Of a stretch of 64,000 nt of DNA, positions 26,851 through 50,460 are shown piece by piece. Origin of the DNA: Flavobacteriales bacterium (GTDB taxonomy: Bacteria; Bacteroidota; Bacteroidia; Flavobacteriales_F; PHOS-HE28); contig JAMLHB010000002.1 in NCBI GenBank assembly GCA_023957375.1, positions 1,054,001 through 1,118,000 of the forward strand, written 5' to 3'. The stretch's first letter is position 1; each line of letters opens with the position of its first letter. The notes under the pieces were generated by a model. The model did not search any database, was not told the DNA's origin, and saw nothing but the letters and a program-made list of their open reading frames with translations. The translations under genes and the position numbers were made by a program.

Positions 26851-27792
26851 TTATTGTTTCATCCATTTCACGGTTCGTCGACCCGCTATGCCATTCAGCT
26901 CAACAAGGTAGATGCCTGAAGCAAGGCCACTGCTGTTCAACACGAAGGAGCCGTTAGGGTTTGATGCGATCAAAACCGCCCGGCCCATGCCATCAAATAC
27001 ACGCACGGTCGTCAAGTCCCTTGCCTCGGTTTCGACATGCAATACCTCCGCCCCGGGGTTGGGGAAAACCTGGATCCCCGTCGGCCTTACCTGTTCATTT
27101 ATGCTGGTGCTGAAGCCGCATGGCGTAGCCGGTGCGGTCGTGTATGTGATGTCATTGTCCCGGTAGCAACGCAAGCCCTCGAGGGGGCCATCAATGGAAA
27201 CCCAAAGGGAATAGTCGGGGATCAGATAGAAGTAATTGAACCCTATTCGCTCAATCAAGGTGTCTGTCCCCAAGGTGTCAACTTGGCCGACAAATGGATG
27301 GCCAAGCAGATGCACGATCAATCGGCGCAGGTTCAAGCCATCGATCTGAACGGAACCGGTGTCCACCACAACAAATTCCGTCGTTCCAACCGCTCCCGTT
27401 TCTTGCCCCGGCCATGACCAATGGTCTCCCGGGGAGGCAGTGAACCACATGACGGTGTCGAATTCGTATGGTGAAGGGTGGAGCAGGTATACCACGCCAT
27501 CCATTTGGCGCATGTGGAAGTCTGCGATGAATGGGGAAATAATTGTGGAATCCGGCGTTGCCTCCTCATGGATATAAGAAGTTGCGCGAATCCGTTGGGT
27601 TTCTTGCCCATCCACTATGGTATCACCGGAAAAGCGACTGATCACAACACCAACGTATGTATCCCCGGTGCTCCAGTCCACACTGTAGGATTCGTGGCTC
27701 CACTCCGCGCCCGGCGGACACCAGGATTGCGCAAGTACCGCTTGGGCGGCACCTATCCAAAAAATCGGCAGGAGGGCAAGGAACTTCTTCAT
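26851..27792 (-). CDS. Secreted protein with T9SS type-A sorting domain (WCPPGAEW family)
   Basis: The 313-residue protein starts with a signal peptide (FLALLPIFWIGAAQAVLAQ). It then has SWCPPGAEWSHESY, a central beta-rich domain of unknown function and DTLIERIGFNYFYLIPD. The C-terminal sorting domain (about 235-313) contains VFPNPGAEVLHV, VRVFDGMGRAVL and GIYLVELNGIAGRR, typical of T9SS type-A signals. It is a paralogue of the gene at 32988-33890. The start overlaps the previous gene's stop as ATGA, so it is translationally coupled in a tail-to-head series of T9SS cargo genes. Confidence 0.82.
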   Translation of the reverse strand: MKKFLALLPIFWIGAAQAVLAQSWCPPGAEWSHESYSVDWSTGDTYVGVVISRFSGDTIVDGQETQRIRATSYIHEEATPDSTIISPFIADFHMRQMDGVVYLLHPSPYEFDTVMWFTASPGDHWSWPGQETGAVGTTEFVVVDTGSVQIDGLNLRRLIVHLLGHPFVGQVDTLGTDTLIERIGFNYFYLIPDYSLWVSIDGPLEGLRCYRDNDITYTTAPATPCGFSTSINEQVRPTGIQVFPNPGAEVLHVETEARDLTTVRVFDGMGRAVLIASNPNGSFVLNSSGLASGIYLVELNGIAGRRTVKWMKQ

Positions 27793-29261
27793 TGTTTCAT
27801 CCATTTCACGGTTCGTCTTTCTCCGCCGCTATCCACTTCAATCAAGTAGACGCCCGGTGAGAGTGCTGCGCTGCTTAGCTTCAGCACGCCCGTACCCGAG
27901 GCCGCCAGCACCGCCCGGCCCATGGCATCGCGCACCTGCACGTCCATATGGCCCGTGGTGCCTGTTTCGATGTGCAGCACATCTGTTCCCGGGTTTGGCC
28001 ACAACTGCACCTGGCGCACAGGCCGCTCCGCCTCATGGATGCCAACACTTAGGCCATGCAGCTTGGCAATGAAGGTCATGCTGGTATCGCTCACCGTGCC
28101 GTCATCAAAGCCTTTGAAGAAGCCGCACACGAAAATGCTGCCGTCCGGTGCTTGCTTAATATCCGTTAGGCCACTGTACAGGTAGGTGCTGTTGAAATCA
28201 TGCCAGAGGCCGCAGCCCTGCCCAGTGAAGGCTGTGGTGAGCAAGTGCCCCGTGCTGTCCAGCAGGGCGATGCCTCGCCGCAATTGTCCGGCGATGTGTG
28301 TGAAGTCCCCACCAACCATGATCCGGCCATCGCCCAAGGGTAGTAGGGCATTCACGCTGAACGCGAAATCCCCGAAGGAAAGCGGCGGCACATGGCTATA
28401 CTGAGTATGGTTGTTGAAGGTGGTGTCCAATGCTCCATCCGGCATCAGCCGGATCAAGTGAAGGGTGTCGGGTTCATTGGGGAAAACGAACTGCCCTCCG
28501 GCGAGGATGCGGCCGTTGGGCTGTTCCACTAGGCAGGTCGCATAGCCCTTGATGATATTCGTGTGGAAGGTGGTGTCCAAGCTGCCGTCCGGCCAGATGC
28601 GCAGGATCCGCCCCTCGGGCTGCCCCTCGTAGGTGTTGTATACACCGCTGACCAAGAGGCGGCCCTGCGTGGTGGGCACAAGGGTCCAGATCACCCCGTC
28701 CGTTTTCCGCCATTGGTAGGTACTGTCCAGTATGCCGTTCGTGTCCACGCGCAGCAGCGAATACCAGCCCGGTGCATTGATCCCCCATTGTTCGGCAACA
28801 CGATGGTCCCCGGTGCAAAGCACCATGCCGTCCGGTTGCACGTACACATCACCGCCATTGTAGGTCACTAGCCCAGGATGGGGATAATTCTCTGTAATGG
28901 GAAGAAAACCCTGGTCTAACGTTCCGGTCGTGCGGAAGTACCGGGCCGGAAATCCATTGATCGTCAAATAATAATAATCCCCGGAGGTGAGGATATCTCC
29001 GTAGCCCCAATTCGAAGTCCAAGATTCGTCCAGATCACCGTTAGGCAGGATGCGGAAAAAAGAGTAAGGGATGTTGGAACCATCAATCCGTACATACCAT
29101 CCGGATGCTAATACACTCCCATCTTCCAAGGGCAGCAAGGCAATCAAACCATTGTTCAAGAAGCGCGTGCAACGGAACGAAGTGTCCAAGGTAAGCGGCA
29201 CCTGCGCTCCGCCGCTGCTGGCCGTCATTGCGGCCAGCAGCGCGAGGGTCAGGACTTTCAT
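27789..29261 (-). CDS. Delta-60-repeat beta-propeller-like secreted protein with T9SS sorting domain
   Basis: The 490-residue protein has a signal peptide (MKVLTLALLAAMTASSGGAQ). It then carries at least six repeats of about 55-60 residues built around phrases such as LxxGxxxVxGxF and LPDGxLDTTF, the delta-60 repeat, which form propeller-like folds. The C-terminal 75 residues are a T9SS type-A sorting domain (LWPNPGTDVLHIE, VRDAMGRAVL, GVYLIEVDSGGERR). Outer-surface attachment or release is expected; the ligand is unknown. It overlaps both neighbours by ATGA junctions, forming a coupled operon with the metalloprotease halves upstream. Confidence 0.85.
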   Translation of the reverse strand: MKVLTLALLAAMTASSGGAQVPLTLDTSFRCTRFLNNGLIALLPLEDGSVLASGWYVRIDGSNIPYSFFRILPNGDLDESWTSNWGYGDILTSGDYYYLTINGFPARYFRTTGTLDQGFLPITENYPHPGLVTYNGGDVYVQPDGMVLCTGDHRVAEQWGINAPGWYSLLRVDTNGILDSTYQWRKTDGVIWTLVPTTQGRLLVSGVYNTYEGQPEGRILRIWPDGSLDTTFHTNIIKGYATCLVEQPNGRILAGGQFVFPNEPDTLHLIRLMPDGALDTTFNNHTQYSHVPPLSFGDFAFSVNALLPLGDGRIMVGGDFTHIAGQLRRGIALLDSTGHLLTTAFTGQGCGLWHDFNSTYLYSGLTDIKQAPDGSIFVCGFFKGFDDGTVSDTSMTFIAKLHGLSVGIHEAERPVRQVQLWPNPGTDVLHIETGTTGHMDVQVRDAMGRAVLAASGTGVLKLSSAALSPGVYLIEVDSGGERRTVKWMKQ

Positions 29262-32002
29262 GGCTTGAGTACTAAGCGTTCCGTGGCAATGCGCCCGCCG
29301 TCGTTCAGCAGTTCCACGCTGTAGGTGCCTGGGGCGTAGCTCCGCGTGTCCAGCAGTTGCTGGCCCTGCTGCGTGGAGAGGGGCATGCGCTTCAGCTCCC
29401 GCCCGTCCACGCCGCGCAGTACCAGCACCGCATCCTTCGGCGCATCCGCGAGCTTGTAGGCAAGGGTAACGTAGGCGATAGCCGGGTTCGGGTAAACAGC
29501 CAGGGGGCTCGGAGCGGTAGTGGGCACGGTAGGCTTGGGCAGCTGCAGCATCTTCTGCGTGGCACCCTCACCGGTGCAGGGGGTATCGCATTCCTTGTAG
29601 CCGAAGCAGAGGATGTTTTGCGCCCAGAACGCGGGCCGCTCGCATCCCGTCGAAGCGATGTTCCGCAAACTGGCCAGTTCCGTGCTGTCCAGGTGCATCA
29701 GGCCATGGCCTGCCCTGTGAAAACTTGCGAGAAGATTGATGTAGGCCACGGCATCATCGCGCTCCTTTGCTTGGTCATCGCTCAACTTATACAGCGCGCC
29801 CAGCCCGAGCATCAAGTCCTTGGCCTGGTCGTACTCCCCGCGCTCTAAGCGGGTGAGGGCCTCGCTGTAGCGCGCCCCGAGGCTGGGCACCTGCTGCCAG
29901 CGGACAAGGATGCTGTCCGTGCGGATGCCCAAGGTGTCGTTTTTCCATTCACCGATCAGCTCGTCCGCCGCGAAGCTCATGTCCGCGTGGTGCTGCCCCA
30001 TGTCGCTTTCCAGCTGGGTGCGGAAGGTCTTCTGATTCCACGAGCCCACGATCAGGTCGATCATGTATTGCGGCAACGGGTACGGCGAATCATATTGCAG
30101 CCATTTGATGAGGCCTTCCTTCTTCGTCCCGTCCGGGTTGGCTAACAGCACCTCCAGCAGCATGGCCTGCGGCATGATGTTCTTGATCACTGCCTCGCGC
30201 AAGACCTCCGTGGAGAGGTACGGCGATTTGGCCATCAATTGGTCGTGCAATGGCCAGGCATCGGCCGGCCAGGTCATTTGCACCTCATCGATCAGCGCAT
30301 CCGTGTTGCCGCCGTCCAGCAGTGCGTTGTACACGTAGGCCGTGTTCACGTAGGCTGTTTTCGCTGCGGCGAATTGCCCGCGCACCTCGTTCATCTGCAC
30401 CTCGGTATAGTGCTGGGGCACCCGCCCATCAAGGTGCGAGGGGCATCCGTTGGAGTGCGTGGTGTAGGTGATGCCCACCCATCCAGGAGTATAGTCCAGC
30501 GGCTTGGCTGCGGGGTTGGAGCCATCGTTGTGCCAGTAGTTCAGTACCCAGTCCGTGTTGTTCTTGAAATCGCTCTCGTCCATGGGCGTGGTCTCCTGCG
30601 TGAAGATGTTCCCGGCGGGTGTGGACGAGGAACCTTGCTGGGTGCGGATGCTGTGATTGTTGCTGTATGGGTTTCCGGTCAACTTCCGGTCGAAGATGTC
30701 GGTTCCGCCGGGATTGTTGTTGCTGTTGCAGAGGAATTGCAGGCCCACATAGGCGGCTTGGGCCGGGTCCATGCACTTTCCTTCTCCGACGAAAGCCTGG
30801 TTCGTGTTCTCGGCGGTGTTCTTGTACACCTGGCTGTTGTACTCTCCGCTGAAATTGATCCGCGTACCGGTGAACAGATTGGCCGCATCCGCTGTTCGGG
30901 TGAAATGGTTCCCTTCAATGCGAAAGCCATGGCCGCCAGTGGAGTAGATGCCATGGTGCCCGCCTACATTCACGATATCGTAATCTGGCGTTCCGAACAC
31001 AGGTTCTACATCTCGACCTCCTCCTGTGAAATTGCTCTTGAACACGTGGAAGCTGTTCACGCTGTTGCTGTAAATCCCGATCACGTTGTCGGTGAAATCG
31101 CAATCGGTGACCGAGAAGGTGCGGTCCGTGGAAGAGACGGAGGCCTCGATACCGTGGTCCAGCCCTTCGAATGTGCTGCGGGTTAAGTGCGCGGGTGGGC
31201 AAGGGAAATAACCAGATGAGCACGCGCCGGAGATCATGTAATGTGCATCAATGCTCGTGATGCCGCGGCCCAGCTTGTAGCTCTCCGTGACCCCGGTCTG
31301 CAGGTTCTTGAAATGGCAACCGCTGATCCTGATGCCGTCCACCTGCCACATGCTGATGTGCGTGGAGAAATCACCCACTCCGCGGTAGTTGTCATCCAAG
31401 ATGAAGTCGCAGTATTTGAATAGACTTCGGTTGGCGGTGGGCTGGCCACCGGCCGTGGTGTTCTGGTAAGCCAGGAATTCCGCAGACCGGTGACAGTTGA
31501 GGAAGGTGGTGTTCGTAGCTTGGATGATCCCGCCAAAAGTCCCGTACACGCCGGGTTGTTGCATGGTGATGTTCCGGGCATGCTCAATCACCGCGCCGTT
31601 CTTCAGCACCAGCATGCCCTGGTAGGTGGGGATGGGGGAGCCGGATTGGTTGTGGACATTGTCGCCCCATACTTCGATGCCGGGCCAGAAGCCGGCGCAA
31701 CCGGTAGTGGTGATGTATCCACCATCGACGATCAAGCGCGCGCCCTGTTTCACGATGATCTTTCCATCACCCGGCATGCCCACCCGGCACTTGATCGTCA
31801 AGGTGGCCCCTGGTTGCACCGTCACGTTCCCGCCGACCACCTTCGCCCAATTCCACGTCTCATCGGCGGTGATCGTCTTGTCCAAAGCGGGATCGCGCGT
31901 ATCGGCGGTCAGCCAGCCACTTCTAAATGTACCCGCCAGCATTTGATGCATATGCCCGATCTGCTCCGGCGTCCAGTTCATTTTATCGGAACTATACCCC
32001 AT
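29258..32002 (-). CDS. C-terminal part of an interrupted M43 metalloprotease: Met-turn, right-handed beta-helix, T9SS sorting domain
   Basis: The frame opens with MGYSSDKMNWTPEQIGHMHQ, the Met-turn segment that follows the zinc site in pappalysin-type M43 proteases. A right-handed beta-helix with NosD-like repeats follows (about 60-420: NVTVQPGATLTIKC, GGYITTTGCAGFWPGIEVWG, ITMQQPGVYGTFGG). Then comes a long helical and spacer region and a T9SS type-A tail (VYPNPAIAYVTLAYKL, GTYSVELLNDGGRIATERL). It has no signal peptide of its own. It is in the same reading frame as the protein ending at 32030, separated only by a TAG and nine sense codons, so both are parts of one gene. On its own it is unlikely to be exported or active. 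Confidence 0.85.
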   Translation of the reverse strand: MGYSSDKMNWTPEQIGHMHQMLAGTFRSGWLTADTRDPALDKTITADETWNWAKVVGGNVTVQPGATLTIKCRVGMPGDGKIIVKQGARLIVDGGYITTTGCAGFWPGIEVWGDNVHNQSGSPIPTYQGMLVLKNGAVIEHARNITMQQPGVYGTFGGIIQATNTTFLNCHRSAEFLAYQNTTAGGQPTANRSLFKYCDFILDDNYRGVGDFSTHISMWQVDGIRISGCHFKNLQTGVTESYKLGRGITSIDAHYMISGACSSGYFPCPPAHLTRSTFEGLDHGIEASVSSTDRTFSVTDCDFTDNVIGIYSNSVNSFHVFKSNFTGGGRDVEPVFGTPDYDIVNVGGHHGIYSTGGHGFRIEGNHFTRTADAANLFTGTRINFSGEYNSQVYKNTAENTNQAFVGEGKCMDPAQAAYVGLQFLCNSNNNPGGTDIFDRKLTGNPYSNNHSIRTQQGSSSTPAGNIFTQETTPMDESDFKNNTDWVLNYWHNDGSNPAAKPLDYTPGWVGITYTTHSNGCPSHLDGRVPQHYTEVQMNEVRGQFAAAKTAYVNTAYVYNALLDGGNTDALIDEVQMTWPADAWPLHDQLMAKSPYLSTEVLREAVIKNIMPQAMLLEVLLANPDGTKKEGLIKWLQYDSPYPLPQYMIDLIVGSWNQKTFRTQLESDMGQHHADMSFAADELIGEWKNDTLGIRTDSILVRWQQVPSLGARYSEALTRLERGEYDQAKDLMLGLGALYKLSDDQAKERDDAVAYINLLASFHRAGHGLMHLDSTELASLRNIASTGCERPAFWAQNILCFGYKECDTPCTGEGATQKMLQLPKPTVPTTAPSPLAVYPNPAIAYVTLAYKLADAPKDAVLVLRGVDGRELKRMPLSTQQGQQLLDTRSYAPGTYSVELLNDGGRIATERLVLKP

Positions 32003-32029
32003 GGTATTGTTGAGACATGGGCTGTGGGG

Positions 32030-32932
32030 CTATGTAGGGGTCACATCGGAGGTTGGACTGCACCAGCTACTATAATGAGGGCATGGCAGGTCGGTGAACT
32101 GTGAGCATGTTAACCACGAATGTTGAAAACCAAGTGTATGTCCCATTTCGTGGGCCGTCAGCGCATTGAAATACCAAGGGTCCCCTCCTAACGGTCCTGC
32201 TGGCCAAGGATCGCCGGGTGGTAAATCCAAGTACATCTTATATACGTTCTGTAACATGACGCAGGTGTAGTCGTAGGATAACATATCTTCTGCTGGACCA
32301 CAACCTGCTGTGGTAAAATAGGTGCCACTTGTTCTACCGATAATGAACACGTTCAGATATTTACAGGGTTCTACTGCATAGTTATCAAAGCAGTAATTGC
32401 TTGTATAGGCGCAGAAACTTCCATTATTGCTCCAACCAACGTCATCTTTGTGGAACAAAATGTCTTGGACGGAAAATCGAACACGGGTATCGCCTACCAC
32501 CGCTGTAGTTACAACTCCATTAAAAATTTGGTCGGCCACTTCGCCGTATATTTTGTTTACGGATGGCGGATTGGATCCGGGAATGCCATCTAAGATGGCA
32601 TTCAAAAAATCCATGTGCGCGGGGATATCACTTCGAAAATTCTGAGGATCGGCCGGATTGGATTTTTGCATCACATGGATGATCACCCGAACTGTAAGGA
32701 TGTCATCGGTTGCGAGTGGGATATAGTCGGTGTTATTGGCCCCAGAGTATGGGCTTGCATCTACGCAACTGCCGCCACTGCCACCACTGCCGCCCATCAT
32801 CTCTGGTATAGGTCCATCCGCTGTCTGGCAGGCTATGTTCTGTGCCCAGGCAGGGATGGTCATTGCAAATGTGAGTGCCGCACAAGTGCCGATGCGGCAT
32901 AGCGTGTTGGAAAGGGAGTTTGCGTTCTTCAT
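32030..32932 (-). CDS. N-terminal part of an interrupted M43 (pappalysin-type) zinc metalloprotease
   Basis: The 300-residue product has a signal peptide ending AMTIPAWAQ, a Gly-Ser-rich linker and an M43 catalytic domain. The zinc signature HEMGHTLGFQH (HExxHxxGxxH) lies near residues 260-270. The frame then stops at a TAG (32030-32032). Reading through gives nine codons encoding PHSPCLNNT followed by the MGYSSDK Met-turn, exactly what should come next in this family. The gene is therefore split by an in-frame amber codon. It may be a new pseudogene, a consensus error or a readthrough site. AT content is visibly higher than in the surrounding housekeeping genes. Confidence 0.85.
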   Translation of the reverse strand: MKNANSLSNTLCRIGTCAALTFAMTIPAWAQNIACQTADGPIPEMMGGSGGSGGSCVDASPYSGANNTDYIPLATDDILTVRVIIHVMQKSNPADPQNFRSDIPAHMDFLNAILDGIPGSNPPSVNKIYGEVADQIFNGVVTTAVVGDTRVRFSVQDILFHKDDVGWSNNGSFCAYTSNYCFDNYAVEPCKYLNVFIIGRTSGTYFTTAGCGPAEDMLSYDYTCVMLQNVYKMYLDLPPGDPWPAGPLGGDPWYFNALTAHEMGHTLGFQHSWLTCSQFTDLPCPHYSSWCSPTSDVTPT

Positions 32933-32987
32933 GGGGTAGGAGGCGTTTTGTTTAACCAAGGGTGTATGGGGTGTGAGGCGCAATGGT

Positions 32988-33890
32988 TTACAGCTTAACA
33001 AATTTCTCCGTTAGCAATGGGCGGCCGGTATGATCCACGATTTTGCAGATGCATGGTCCTGCGGCCAGCATGCTCAGGTCAAGGTCTGCAGATTCCCCCA
33101 ATAGGGGAGCATGAAGCACGCACGTTCCTAAAACATTGAATAATTGCAACGCGGATCGTGAGCCGGAAGGGATATGGGCAACTGTCATTAGACCGGTTTT
33201 CATGACGATGGATATCGGGGTGCGATTTTCGGTGAGCTGATTTGCACTGAGGGTATAGTCGCACGGCACAGACACGTTTGTGGACAGTCCGATCTCGTTG
33301 TCAGCGTAACATCTTAACGGCCCTGTGTTCATGTCGAGTTGATAATATAACCAAGGCAGCACAGGGAGGTTAAGGGAGCCAATTCGTTCAATAAGGGTGT
33401 CGTTCATGACGGATATTCCATCCACTTCAGGGACTTCGATGGCAAGCCAACGCAATAACACTCCATCAATCAAGGTGGAACCGGTATCGGTGACCAAGAT
33501 CGAGTATGGATCATTCGTGCCAGGGAACGGCAATTGCCATGTTGCGCCCGGGATAGCCCCGAAGTACCAAAGCGTATCAAACTCATTGTCGAGCCAAAGT
33601 TTCACGCAATCAGACGTGTAGGCGGTATACAACGGAGGATAGGTGACACTCACGGGTGATTGAAATGGAATGTTCCAGCCGAACAGTGTCCGGGTCATTT
33701 TCTGGGCTGGAATGGAGTTGATCAGCGTGTCTTCTTGAAAGGTGATCAATTCATATCCCTCTGTCCCCCCCACATCCGAATAATTATAATGCCATTCCGC
33801 TCCCGGTGGGCACCATTGCTGTGCTTGCACCATGCTCATACATAAGCTGGCCCATAGGCCCATCGATGCGTGCAGGTGCGTGCGGTTCAT
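32988..33890 (-). CDS. Secreted WCPPGAEW-family protein, paralogue of the 26851-27792 gene
   Basis: This 300-residue protein has a signal peptide (ASMGLWASLCMSMVQAQ). It shares with the gene at 26851 the blocks WCPPGAEW, DTLIERIG and the LRCYADNEI segment in the same order. The C-terminal region keeps the T9SS-like pattern LQLFNVLGTCVLHA and AGPCICKIVDHTGR but lacks a clear YPNP opening, so its sorting signal is diverged. Function is unknown. The gene lies upstream of the interrupted metalloprotease and is probably part of the same cargo cluster. Its start at 33890 is the ATG nearest the signal peptide. Confidence 0.75.
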   Translation of the reverse strand: MNRTHLHASMGLWASLCMSMVQAQQWCPPGAEWHYNYSDVGGTEGYELITFQEDTLINSIPAQKMTRTLFGWNIPFQSPVSVTYPPLYTAYTSDCVKLWLDNEFDTLWYFGAIPGATWQLPFPGTNDPYSILVTDTGSTLIDGVLLRWLAIEVPEVDGISVMNDTLIERIGSLNLPVLPWLYYQLDMNTGPLRCYADNEIGLSTNVSVPCDYTLSANQLTENRTPISIVMKTGLMTVAHIPSGSRSALQLFNVLGTCVLHAPLLGESADLDLSMLAAGPCICKIVDHTGRPLLTEKFVKL

Positions 33891-48363: not shown

Positions 48364-50460
48364 ATGAAGAAATCCCGAATGTTGCGCAAGTTTTCTTTCC
48401 TGTTGACCGCTGCATGGCTTCTGTCCACCCTGTCCGTGAAGGCCCAACAAGAGGTGCCGTTCGTTTGCGGGGCCAATGAACTTCACCGCATGGGCTCCCT
48501 GGTGGAGGGCCACCCGGACCGGTTGCAGCAGATCGACCAAGCACAACAAGACCTGGAGCAGTTCACCCGGGATTGGGCCCAACATCCCTCGCGTGACGAA
48601 AACACGTACATCATTCCGGTGGTGTTCCACATTATCCATGTCAACGGACCGGAGAACATCAGCGACGAGCAGGTGCGCGATGCGGTGCGCGTGATGAACG
48701 AGGATTTCAACAAGCTCACGCCCGACTGGGACCAGGTGCAGCCCGAGTTCCTGGACCGCGTGGCGGACATGGAGGTCACTTTCAAACTGGCCCAATTGGA
48801 CCCGAACGGTAATTGCACCAATGGCATCACGCGCACGGTGAGCACGCTCACCAACGCCGGTGACCAGAACATGAAGAACCTGATCCAATGGCCGCGCAAC
48901 CGCTACCTGAACATCTGGGTGGCCGCCAGCGCACAGGGTGCAGCGGGCTACTCCATGTACCCGTCCTCCGTAACGGGCCAGTGGGGTGAGGCTGCGGATG
49001 GCATTGTGGTCCTGCATTCCTATGTGGGCGCCATCGGCACCAGCAGCATTGAAAGGTCGCACACGCTCAGTCACGAGGCGGGCCATTGGTTGAACCTCAA
49101 GCACTGCTGGGGCGATTCCAACGACCCCGGCCTGCCCTCCAATTGCGACATGGATGACAACGTGTCGGACACGCCCAATACCAAGGGATGGACCAGCTGT
49201 AATCTGCGCGGCGCCAGTTGCGGATCAACCGTGGACAACGTGGAGAACTTCATGGAATACTCGTACTGCTCCAAGATGTTCACCAACGGGCAGAAGACGC
49301 GCGTACACGCCGCCCTGAACAGCAATGTTGCCTCGCGCAGCAACTTGTGGAGCCCCGCCAACCTGGCATTGACCGGCGTGAATGCCGAGCCGCAGATCTG
49401 CGAAGTGGAGTTCACGAGCAACATGCGGACGATCTGTGCCGGGCAAAGCATCAACTTCACGGATGCGAGCTACAATGGCGTGACCGAATGGTCTTGGAGC
49501 TTTGCGGGAGGGACACCTGCTGCGGCCAGCACCGCCACTACGACCGTCACGTATGCGGAGCCGGGTACCTACAGTGTGAGCCTGACCGTCGGGGACGGTT
49601 CGGAAAGCATGACCGAAACCGAGGAGCAGTACATCACGGTACTGCCCTCCGACGGGGCGCAACTTCCCCTGTCTGAAAGCTTCGAGGGAAGCGGCGGCTT
49701 GGCCTCCACCATTTGGACGCCCCAGGCCGACATTGGCGCAGGATTCCAAGTTTCATCCTCGGCGGGGTACACCGGCCCGCACAGCCTGATGGTGCCCAAC
49801 AACAACTCCAATTCGGGGAGAACGTTCAACTTGATCAGCAACACCGTGAACGTTGCCGCCTCCTCCCCGGCAGTGATCAGCTTCCGTTATGCGTTCGCAA
49901 AGCGGAACGACAGCAACAACGACGCCCTGTACGTGTACATCAGCCGTGATTGCGGCCAAACATGGAGCATGCGCCGCGCCTTGGGCGGGGACAACCTGAA
50001 GACCGCGCCGAACACAGGGTCCTCGTTCGTTCCAAGCGGCCCCGACCAGTGGGGCTACAGTGAAACTCCGCCGATAAGCGGCACCTACGCGGTGAGCGAC
50101 CTGCGCGTCAAGTTCGTTTTCCAGAGCGGGGGCGGGAACAACCTGTGGATAGACGACATCAACATCGACGGGGCCGTAGGCATTGCGGAACAAGGAACGG
50201 TCCAGGGTTCAACCCTCTCCGTGGTGCCCAATCCGGCCAAGGACGTAGTTGAAATCGGCGCCTTCCTGGCAACTGCGGGCTCCGTGAAAGCCGACCTGGT
50301 GGATTTGTTGGGCCGCCCGGTTCGGGAAATTGCCGCAGGCATGCAACCAGTGGGCGAAGTCCGTTGGACCGTGGACTTGGCAGGCCTGCCAGCAGGCCTC
50401 TACTTTATCCGCGTACAGCAGGCAGGCCGTGTGCAGGTAGGCAAGCTCACCAAGGAATAG
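48364..50460 (+). CDS. Secreted M43 (pappalysin-type) metalloprotease with PKD and T9SS domains
   Basis: The 698-residue protein has a signal peptide (FSFLLTAAWLLSTLSVKAQ) and a propeptide-like segment. The M43 catalytic domain has zinc motif HEAGHWLNLKH near 240 and Met-turn region VENFMEYSYCSKMFT near 295. A PKD domain follows at about 345-430 (ITVLP end, TVTYAEPGTYSVSLTVGDG), then a beta-sandwich domain (about 440-610) and a T9SS type-A tail (VVPNPAKDVVEIG, VDLLGRPVREI, GLYFIRVQQAGR). The same family as the interrupted gene at 29258-32932, but here the frame is intact, so secreted protease function is retained. Confidence 0.94.
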   Translation: MKKSRMLRKFSFLLTAAWLLSTLSVKAQQEVPFVCGANELHRMGSLVEGHPDRLQQIDQAQQDLEQFTRDWAQHPSRDENTYIIPVVFHIIHVNGPENISDEQVRDAVRVMNEDFNKLTPDWDQVQPEFLDRVADMEVTFKLAQLDPNGNCTNGITRTVSTLTNAGDQNMKNLIQWPRNRYLNIWVAASAQGAAGYSMYPSSVTGQWGEAADGIVVLHSYVGAIGTSSIERSHTLSHEAGHWLNLKHCWGDSNDPGLPSNCDMDDNVSDTPNTKGWTSCNLRGASCGSTVDNVENFMEYSYCSKMFTNGQKTRVHAALNSNVASRSNLWSPANLALTGVNAEPQICEVEFTSNMRTICAGQSINFTDASYNGVTEWSWSFAGGTPAAASTATTTVTYAEPGTYSVSLTVGDGSESMTETEEQYITVLPSDGAQLPLSESFEGSGGLASTIWTPQADIGAGFQVSSSAGYTGPHSLMVPNNNSNSGRTFNLISNTVNVAASSPAVISFRYAFAKRNDSNNDALYVYISRDCGQTWSMRRALGGDNLKTAPNTGSSFVPSGPDQWGYSETPPISGTYAVSDLRVKFVFQSGGGNNLWIDDINIDGAVGIAEQGTVQGSTLSVVPNPAKDVVEIGAFLATAGSVKADLVDLLGRPVREIAAGMQPVGEVRWTVDLAGLPAGLYFIRVQQAGRVQVGKLTKE

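Follow-up and report, generated by a model that had tools for sequence, protein, structure and literature searches.

A single in-frame TAG interrupts a gene for a secreted M43-type metalloprotease on the minus strand of the window, the 64,000-nucleotide stretch of Flavobacteriales DNA that was analysed, and falls between the zinc motif and the Met-turn of one catalytic domain. The TAG has an ordinary explanation: most likely the gene was broken recently, or a single base of the sequence is wrong, and no new two-protein route is at work. Annotation should treat the two halves as a single damaged gene rather than as a pair of proteins. Within the genus, the C-terminal carrier of the same gene, about 870 residues long, is joined to three or more unrelated kinds of front, which are interleaved on the carrier tree.

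Results

Layout of the interrupted gene

The genome (G000, 3.83 Mb) is assembled in four contigs, with 99.81% completeness and 1.68% contamination; the window is C2:1054001-1118000 of it. The interrupted gene and its neighbour comprise the following features.

29258-33001, minus strand: interrupted M43 gene, read-through frame, from a possible TTG start at 33001 or the likely ATG start at 32932 to the stop at 29260-29258
32033-32932, minus strand: upstream half, 300 codons counted from the ATG, with signal peptide and the first part of the M43 catalytic domain
32120-32152, minus strand: zinc-binding motif HEMGHTLGFQH, residues 284-294
32030-32032, minus strand: in-frame TAG at codon 324; it lies in the variable loop that joins the zinc motif to the Met-turn
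31994-32002, minus strand: Met-turn MGY, ten codons 3' of the TAG; its Tyr at Met+2 is at the position of the pappalysin 'tyrosine switch' (PMC11674741)
29261-31876, minus strand: C-terminal carrier module, about 870 residues, predicted to run from beta-helix-like through helical to beta-sandwich; found also behind other fronts
29264-29497, minus strand: putative T9SS sorting tail, Por_Secre_tail match under the curated cut-off
27789-29261, minus strand: next gene, a 490-aa DUF5122 propeller protein with a T9SS tail, overlapping by 4 bases

The frame of 1,247 codons is open save for the TAG at 32030-32032; a scan of 1,248 codons found stops at codon 324 (TAG) and codon 1,248 (terminal) and nowhere else. 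The original prediction had described one amber codon in an otherwise undamaged M43 gene, and its coordinates and description are right. Translation also confirms that nine codons after the TAG (32032-32030) the same frame reaches an ATG at 32002 and reads MGYSSDK, continuing open to 29258. In the numbering of the read-through translation the Met-turn methionine is residue 334, with the TAG ten codons ahead of it. The signal peptide (about 31 residues, read by eye) and the zinc motif thus lie before the TAG, and the Met-turn, the beta-helix-like carrier and the T9SS tail after it, so that, as predicted, the upstream half is without the sorting tail and the downstream half without a signal peptide (by eye).

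Two further parts of the prediction need qualification. The putative sorting tail sits at the C-terminus where it was placed, with sub-threshold matches to Por_Secre_tail (TIGR04183; E 0.00087, 19.2 bits, cut-off 23) and to the Pfam sorting-tail model (E 0.0017, 19.1 bits, cut-off 27). The claimed beta-helix rests on a low-confidence carrier model (mean pLDDT 45.6), in which strands seem to be followed by helices and these by a terminal sandwich that is better predicted. The carrier starts at about residue 376.

One M43 domain on both sides of the TAG

The M43 profile PF05572 matched the read-through protein at residues 281-356, across the TAG at 324 (E 0.00017, 22.0 bits, cut-off 23). Searched separately, the upstream (323 aa) and downstream (914 aa) halves gave no PF05572 match at E<=0.1. 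Since the profile spans the TAG and neither half matches alone, the halves belong to one domain. A genome-wide PF05572 search scored the locus at 28.7 bits together with neighbouring in-frame matches and reported one TAG inside it. The HExxHxxGxxH zinc motif is present (HEMGHTLGFQH), and MGY, the Met-turn with its Tyr two residues on, is encoded at residues 334-336, in frame beyond the TAG only. According to PMC11674741, the Met-turn provides the zinc with a hydrophobic base, and the Tyr takes part in substrate binding; a product ending at the TAG is without both, and without the sorting tail. An AlphaFold2 model of the M43 part, built from 3 sequences, was too poor to use (mean pLDDT 31.2), and a profile search of the PDB returned only matches at E 0.085 (about 0.08) or higher, with matrix metalloproteases at the top.

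PF05572 gave six matches at five genes of the genome, and the other four genes are without a stop. A second M43 peptidase in the window (48886-49317; 722-codon frame, 70.1 bits) has a T9SS tail match at its end and no internal stop. A paralogous M43 gene (L003, 1501-2562; G000:C1:1228274-1229335) is one open frame with some 200 residues inserted between the zinc motif region and the Met-turn. A Pfam scan of the 243-aa stretch holding this insert gave no match to the insert. The loop that holds the TAG in the interrupted gene therefore accepts a whole domain in this paralogue.

Uninterrupted orthologues

Comparison of the read-through protein with 147 genomes revealed full-length, uninterrupted homologues in two congeneric genomes, G031 (locus L008; 66% identity, 1,266 codons) and G003 (L010; 44%, 1,224 codons). 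The 914-aa and the 323-aa half both align to these single proteins, and continuity of the frame across the TAG is therefore not a matter of chance. Among 45 genomes of the genus, a profile of the front matched strongly only in the genome itself and in the two orthologues (E 1e-171 and 1e-158); weaker matches were found in 14 further genomes (best E 2.2e-8), and G031 has one further match, to a more distant protein (E 6.2e-17). A scan of GTDB contigs, which may omit records of the window's own genome, returned only the same two loci, from MAGs named as a Flavobacteriales bacterium and a Bacteroidetes bacterium.

In both full-length orthologues the loop joining zinc motif and Met-turn is free of stops. 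This loop differs in length and sequence among the three proteins, and because its length varies among orthologues, the placing of the TAG shortly ahead of the Met-turn has no particular significance. Relatives encoding two separate proteins, the case that the original prediction had named as its refutation, were searched for and none was found; both orthologues are single frames. Internal stops are uncommon among these relatives, though not confined to the interrupted gene: they occur in two of the 57 best-scoring homologue rows (E <= 5.6e-32), namely in the interrupted gene and in a fragmentary carrier of another species, G005, which contains a TAA (L036, G005:C326, 1197-1922).

Age of the stop

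Synonymous divergence was saturated or nearly so (dS 1.3 or more) and dN/dS cannot date the event, so relative counts of unique residues were used. Before the TAG, 26 residues are unique to the interrupted copy and 35 to each of the two relatives; over the rest of the M43 part the numbers are 5 as against 5 and 8, and in the carrier 48 as against 49 in the nearer relative. The interrupted copy thus has no excess of protein changes. A neutral frame of like composition would acquire a second stop, at 95%, within about 84-94 substitutions (2.3-2.6% divergence; about 89 substitutions, or 2.4%, as a single figure), and any disabling event, at 95%, within about 21-22 events (0.6%) if 10% of events, an assumed share, are frameshifting indels. 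With no second lesion and no acceleration, the stop is therefore recent, or not real, or read through.

Third-position G+C is well below that of the carriers in several fronts: about 0.45 in the front of the interrupted gene (31876-32932) versus 0.68-0.83 in its carrier, with a like step in L010, L011, L124 and L139. Other fronts, e.g. those of L128, L136 and L137, show no such step. That the low G+C marks the interrupted copy in particular as damaged or foreign was considered and rejected, as L010 and L011 have the same step; it may reflect how fronts are acquired.

Signals of readthrough or recoding

Terminators were counted in 247 non-overlapping frames, each of 200 codons or more, drawn from the window and 20 stretches of 20 kb: TAG ends 65 of them, TGA 134 and TAA 48. 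No CTA (CUA), TTA or TCA anticodon was found among 43 tRNA loci detected with the tRNA family model and read with ARAGORN. RF1 is present (486.5 bits) and has no internal stop. For pyrrolysyl-tRNA synthetase the genome gave two sub-threshold matches only (20.7 and 20.2 bits, cut-off 178), with a model that matches in 13 of 14 control genomes and exceeds the cut-off in one. Genome-wide amber recoding was rejected on the ordinary use of TAG in the sampled frames, the lack of a CUA tRNA among the 43 loci, an intact RF1 and no synthetase above cut-off. Two more release-factor-like genes lie close together at a contig start (G000:C3:17-1012 and C3:4951-5964; 232.5 and 233.3 bits with the RF1 model, below cut-off) and are perhaps RF2 and a paralogue.

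By simple folding, which leaves pseudoknots aside, the 90 and 117 bases 3' of the TAG fold like their shuffles (z -0.28 and -0.08), as do the 61 bases around it (z 0.45). A scan for coding-like frame pairs split by one stop yielded 86 pairs (TGA 38, TAA 27, TAG 21). As read, this list is dominated by neighbouring genes and shadow frames, and it is a weak test, the interrupted gene itself having failed the filter, probably owing to the unusual codon use of its front; only the terminator counts of the long frames were taken from it.

One carrier behind several fronts

Twenty related stretches, 19 of them from other genomes and one a paralogue in the same genome, were picked by high carrier score and are not usable for frequencies; all 20 hold the carrier together with a homologue of the next gene, the DUF5122 propeller with a sorting tail. 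BLAST grouping of 22 carriers, those of the interrupted gene and L010 included, placed 21 fronts in sets of 6, 7, 7 and 1, the remaining carrier being nearly frontless in its frame. One member was scanned from each of two sets; the match was to a sortilin-like propeller in one (weak, under the cut-off) and to a subtilase in the other (strong). The name of the metallopeptidase set comes from the match of the interrupted gene and from zinc motifs seen in its members, and some links within this set are weak (E 4e-5); the name of the fourth, 'another propeller', comes from appearance only. On the carrier tree, midpoint-rooted for drawing only, the distribution of the metallopeptidase set takes five or more changes, and so does that of the sortilin-like set, on well-supported branches; members of the third set lie closer together.

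The carrier of the interrupted gene is about equally near to that of M43-fronted L123 and that of propeller-fronted L124 (70% each), and DNA similarity to L124 starts 92 codons after the TAG and continues into the next gene. The M43 front is equidistant from L008 and L010 (106/224 residues identical with each), whereas the carrier is much nearer to L008 (605/856) than to L010 (356/856). Because of this difference, and likewise by the comparison with L123 and L124, front and carrier seem to have different histories.

Discussion

We consider it probable that a recent nonsense mutation inactivated one of at least five M43 genes. The intact product would be one T9SS-exported surface protein composed of a pappalysin-type M43 front, a beta-helix-like carrier and a sorting tail. 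A recent single-base change would have placed the stop in the loop that separates the zinc motif from the Met-turn, and normal release by RF1 would then yield a truncated product that bears a signal peptide and has neither Met-turn nor export tail. Such a product would presumably stay in the periplasm, inactive or degraded, and with the downstream part devoid of a signal peptide the protease would be lost. We infer, then, that the base is real, the product inactive and the change recent. As the other four M43 genes have no stop, loss of one is plausibly tolerable. The lack of relaxed constraint is not distinctive of a young nonsense allele, as it is also expected under readthrough or a sequence error.

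The original prediction had offered a fresh nonsense mutation, an assembly error or programmed readthrough, and the first two of these remain. If the error lies in the assembly, the gene is intact in the cells, and the TAG results from a wrong base or from the base of a minority strain taken into the metagenome consensus. This would account for a frame that is perfect but for one stop and bears no mark of relaxed selection, with both orthologues intact, and the genome has no near-identical second copy to confirm or confuse the site (the next match of its own has 40% identity). A wrong base also fits the data as well as a real one. Errors in long-read assemblies, if this is one, are mostly indels, however, and the frame is in register on both sides of the TAG in an assembly of good quality (four contigs, near-complete, little contamination); we regard a sequence error as a lesser, still appreciable possibility. 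Readthrough, by which ribosomes would sometimes decode the TAG and make a little full-length exported protease, appears very improbable. The frame past the TAG is conserved and open, and any stop is read through at a low basal level. Against this, none of the tests lent support to programmed or leaky decoding: the stop is absent from the loop of both orthologues, about one in four of the sampled long frames ends in TAG, no CUA anticodon occurs among the 43 tRNA loci, RF1 is intact, no pyrrolysyl-tRNA synthetase exceeds the cut-off, and the structure 3' of the TAG is no better than that of shuffles.

The least credible reading, in our judgement, is that of two proteins, one an N-terminal part in the periplasm and the other a C-terminal carrier with a start of its own, which might associate. 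An ATG ten codons after the TAG would offer a start, and the carrier is a separable module found behind other fronts; yet this ATG is the peptidase's own Met-turn codon, the carrier proper begins some 40-50 codons beyond it, and both orthologues are fused. Nor could the downstream part, which by eye has no signal peptide, use its tail, for a T9SS tail is unusable from the cytoplasm. With a real nonsense mutation, the gene would resemble the young single-lesion nonsense pseudogenes of bacteria, with one premature stop, a frame otherwise intact, intact orthologues and paralogues present, and we found nothing that sets it apart from them.

The protein itself is like the pappalysins of family M43 (cytophagalysin, mirolysin, ulilysin) in its HExxHxxGxxH motif, its Met-turn methionine and the Tyr two residues on, as these are described in PMC11674741, but differs in its weak sequence similarity (22.0 bits to PF05572) and the stop inside. 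Like cytophagalysin, for which the same paper proposes a C-terminal T9SS-type domain, it is a predicted multidomain secreted bacterial protein, with a putative tail of this type; in place of the eight Ig-like domains predicted there (PMC11674741), it has a long beta-helix-like and helical carrier. Literature on domain shuffling in type IX secretion in Flavobacteriales yielded no description of this carrier in the titles and abstract openings, which is not proof of absence.

A broken protease gene by itself matters little, since nonsense alleles of recent origin are common and wrong bases can occur in any one assembly. Tentatively, and as a possibility rather than an expectation, we suggest that unrelated fronts (M43-type, subtilase and two kinds of beta-propeller) have been traded by recombination onto a conserved T9SS carrier with a DUF5122 partner gene. 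The export part would be kept while the displayed tool changes, and a front killed by a nonsense mutation would be one stage of this turnover; no dedicated exchange mechanism is claimed. A carrier with changing fronts may show how environmental Bacteroidota diversify their type IX surface display, and it is this, more than the TAG, that is worth specialist attention.
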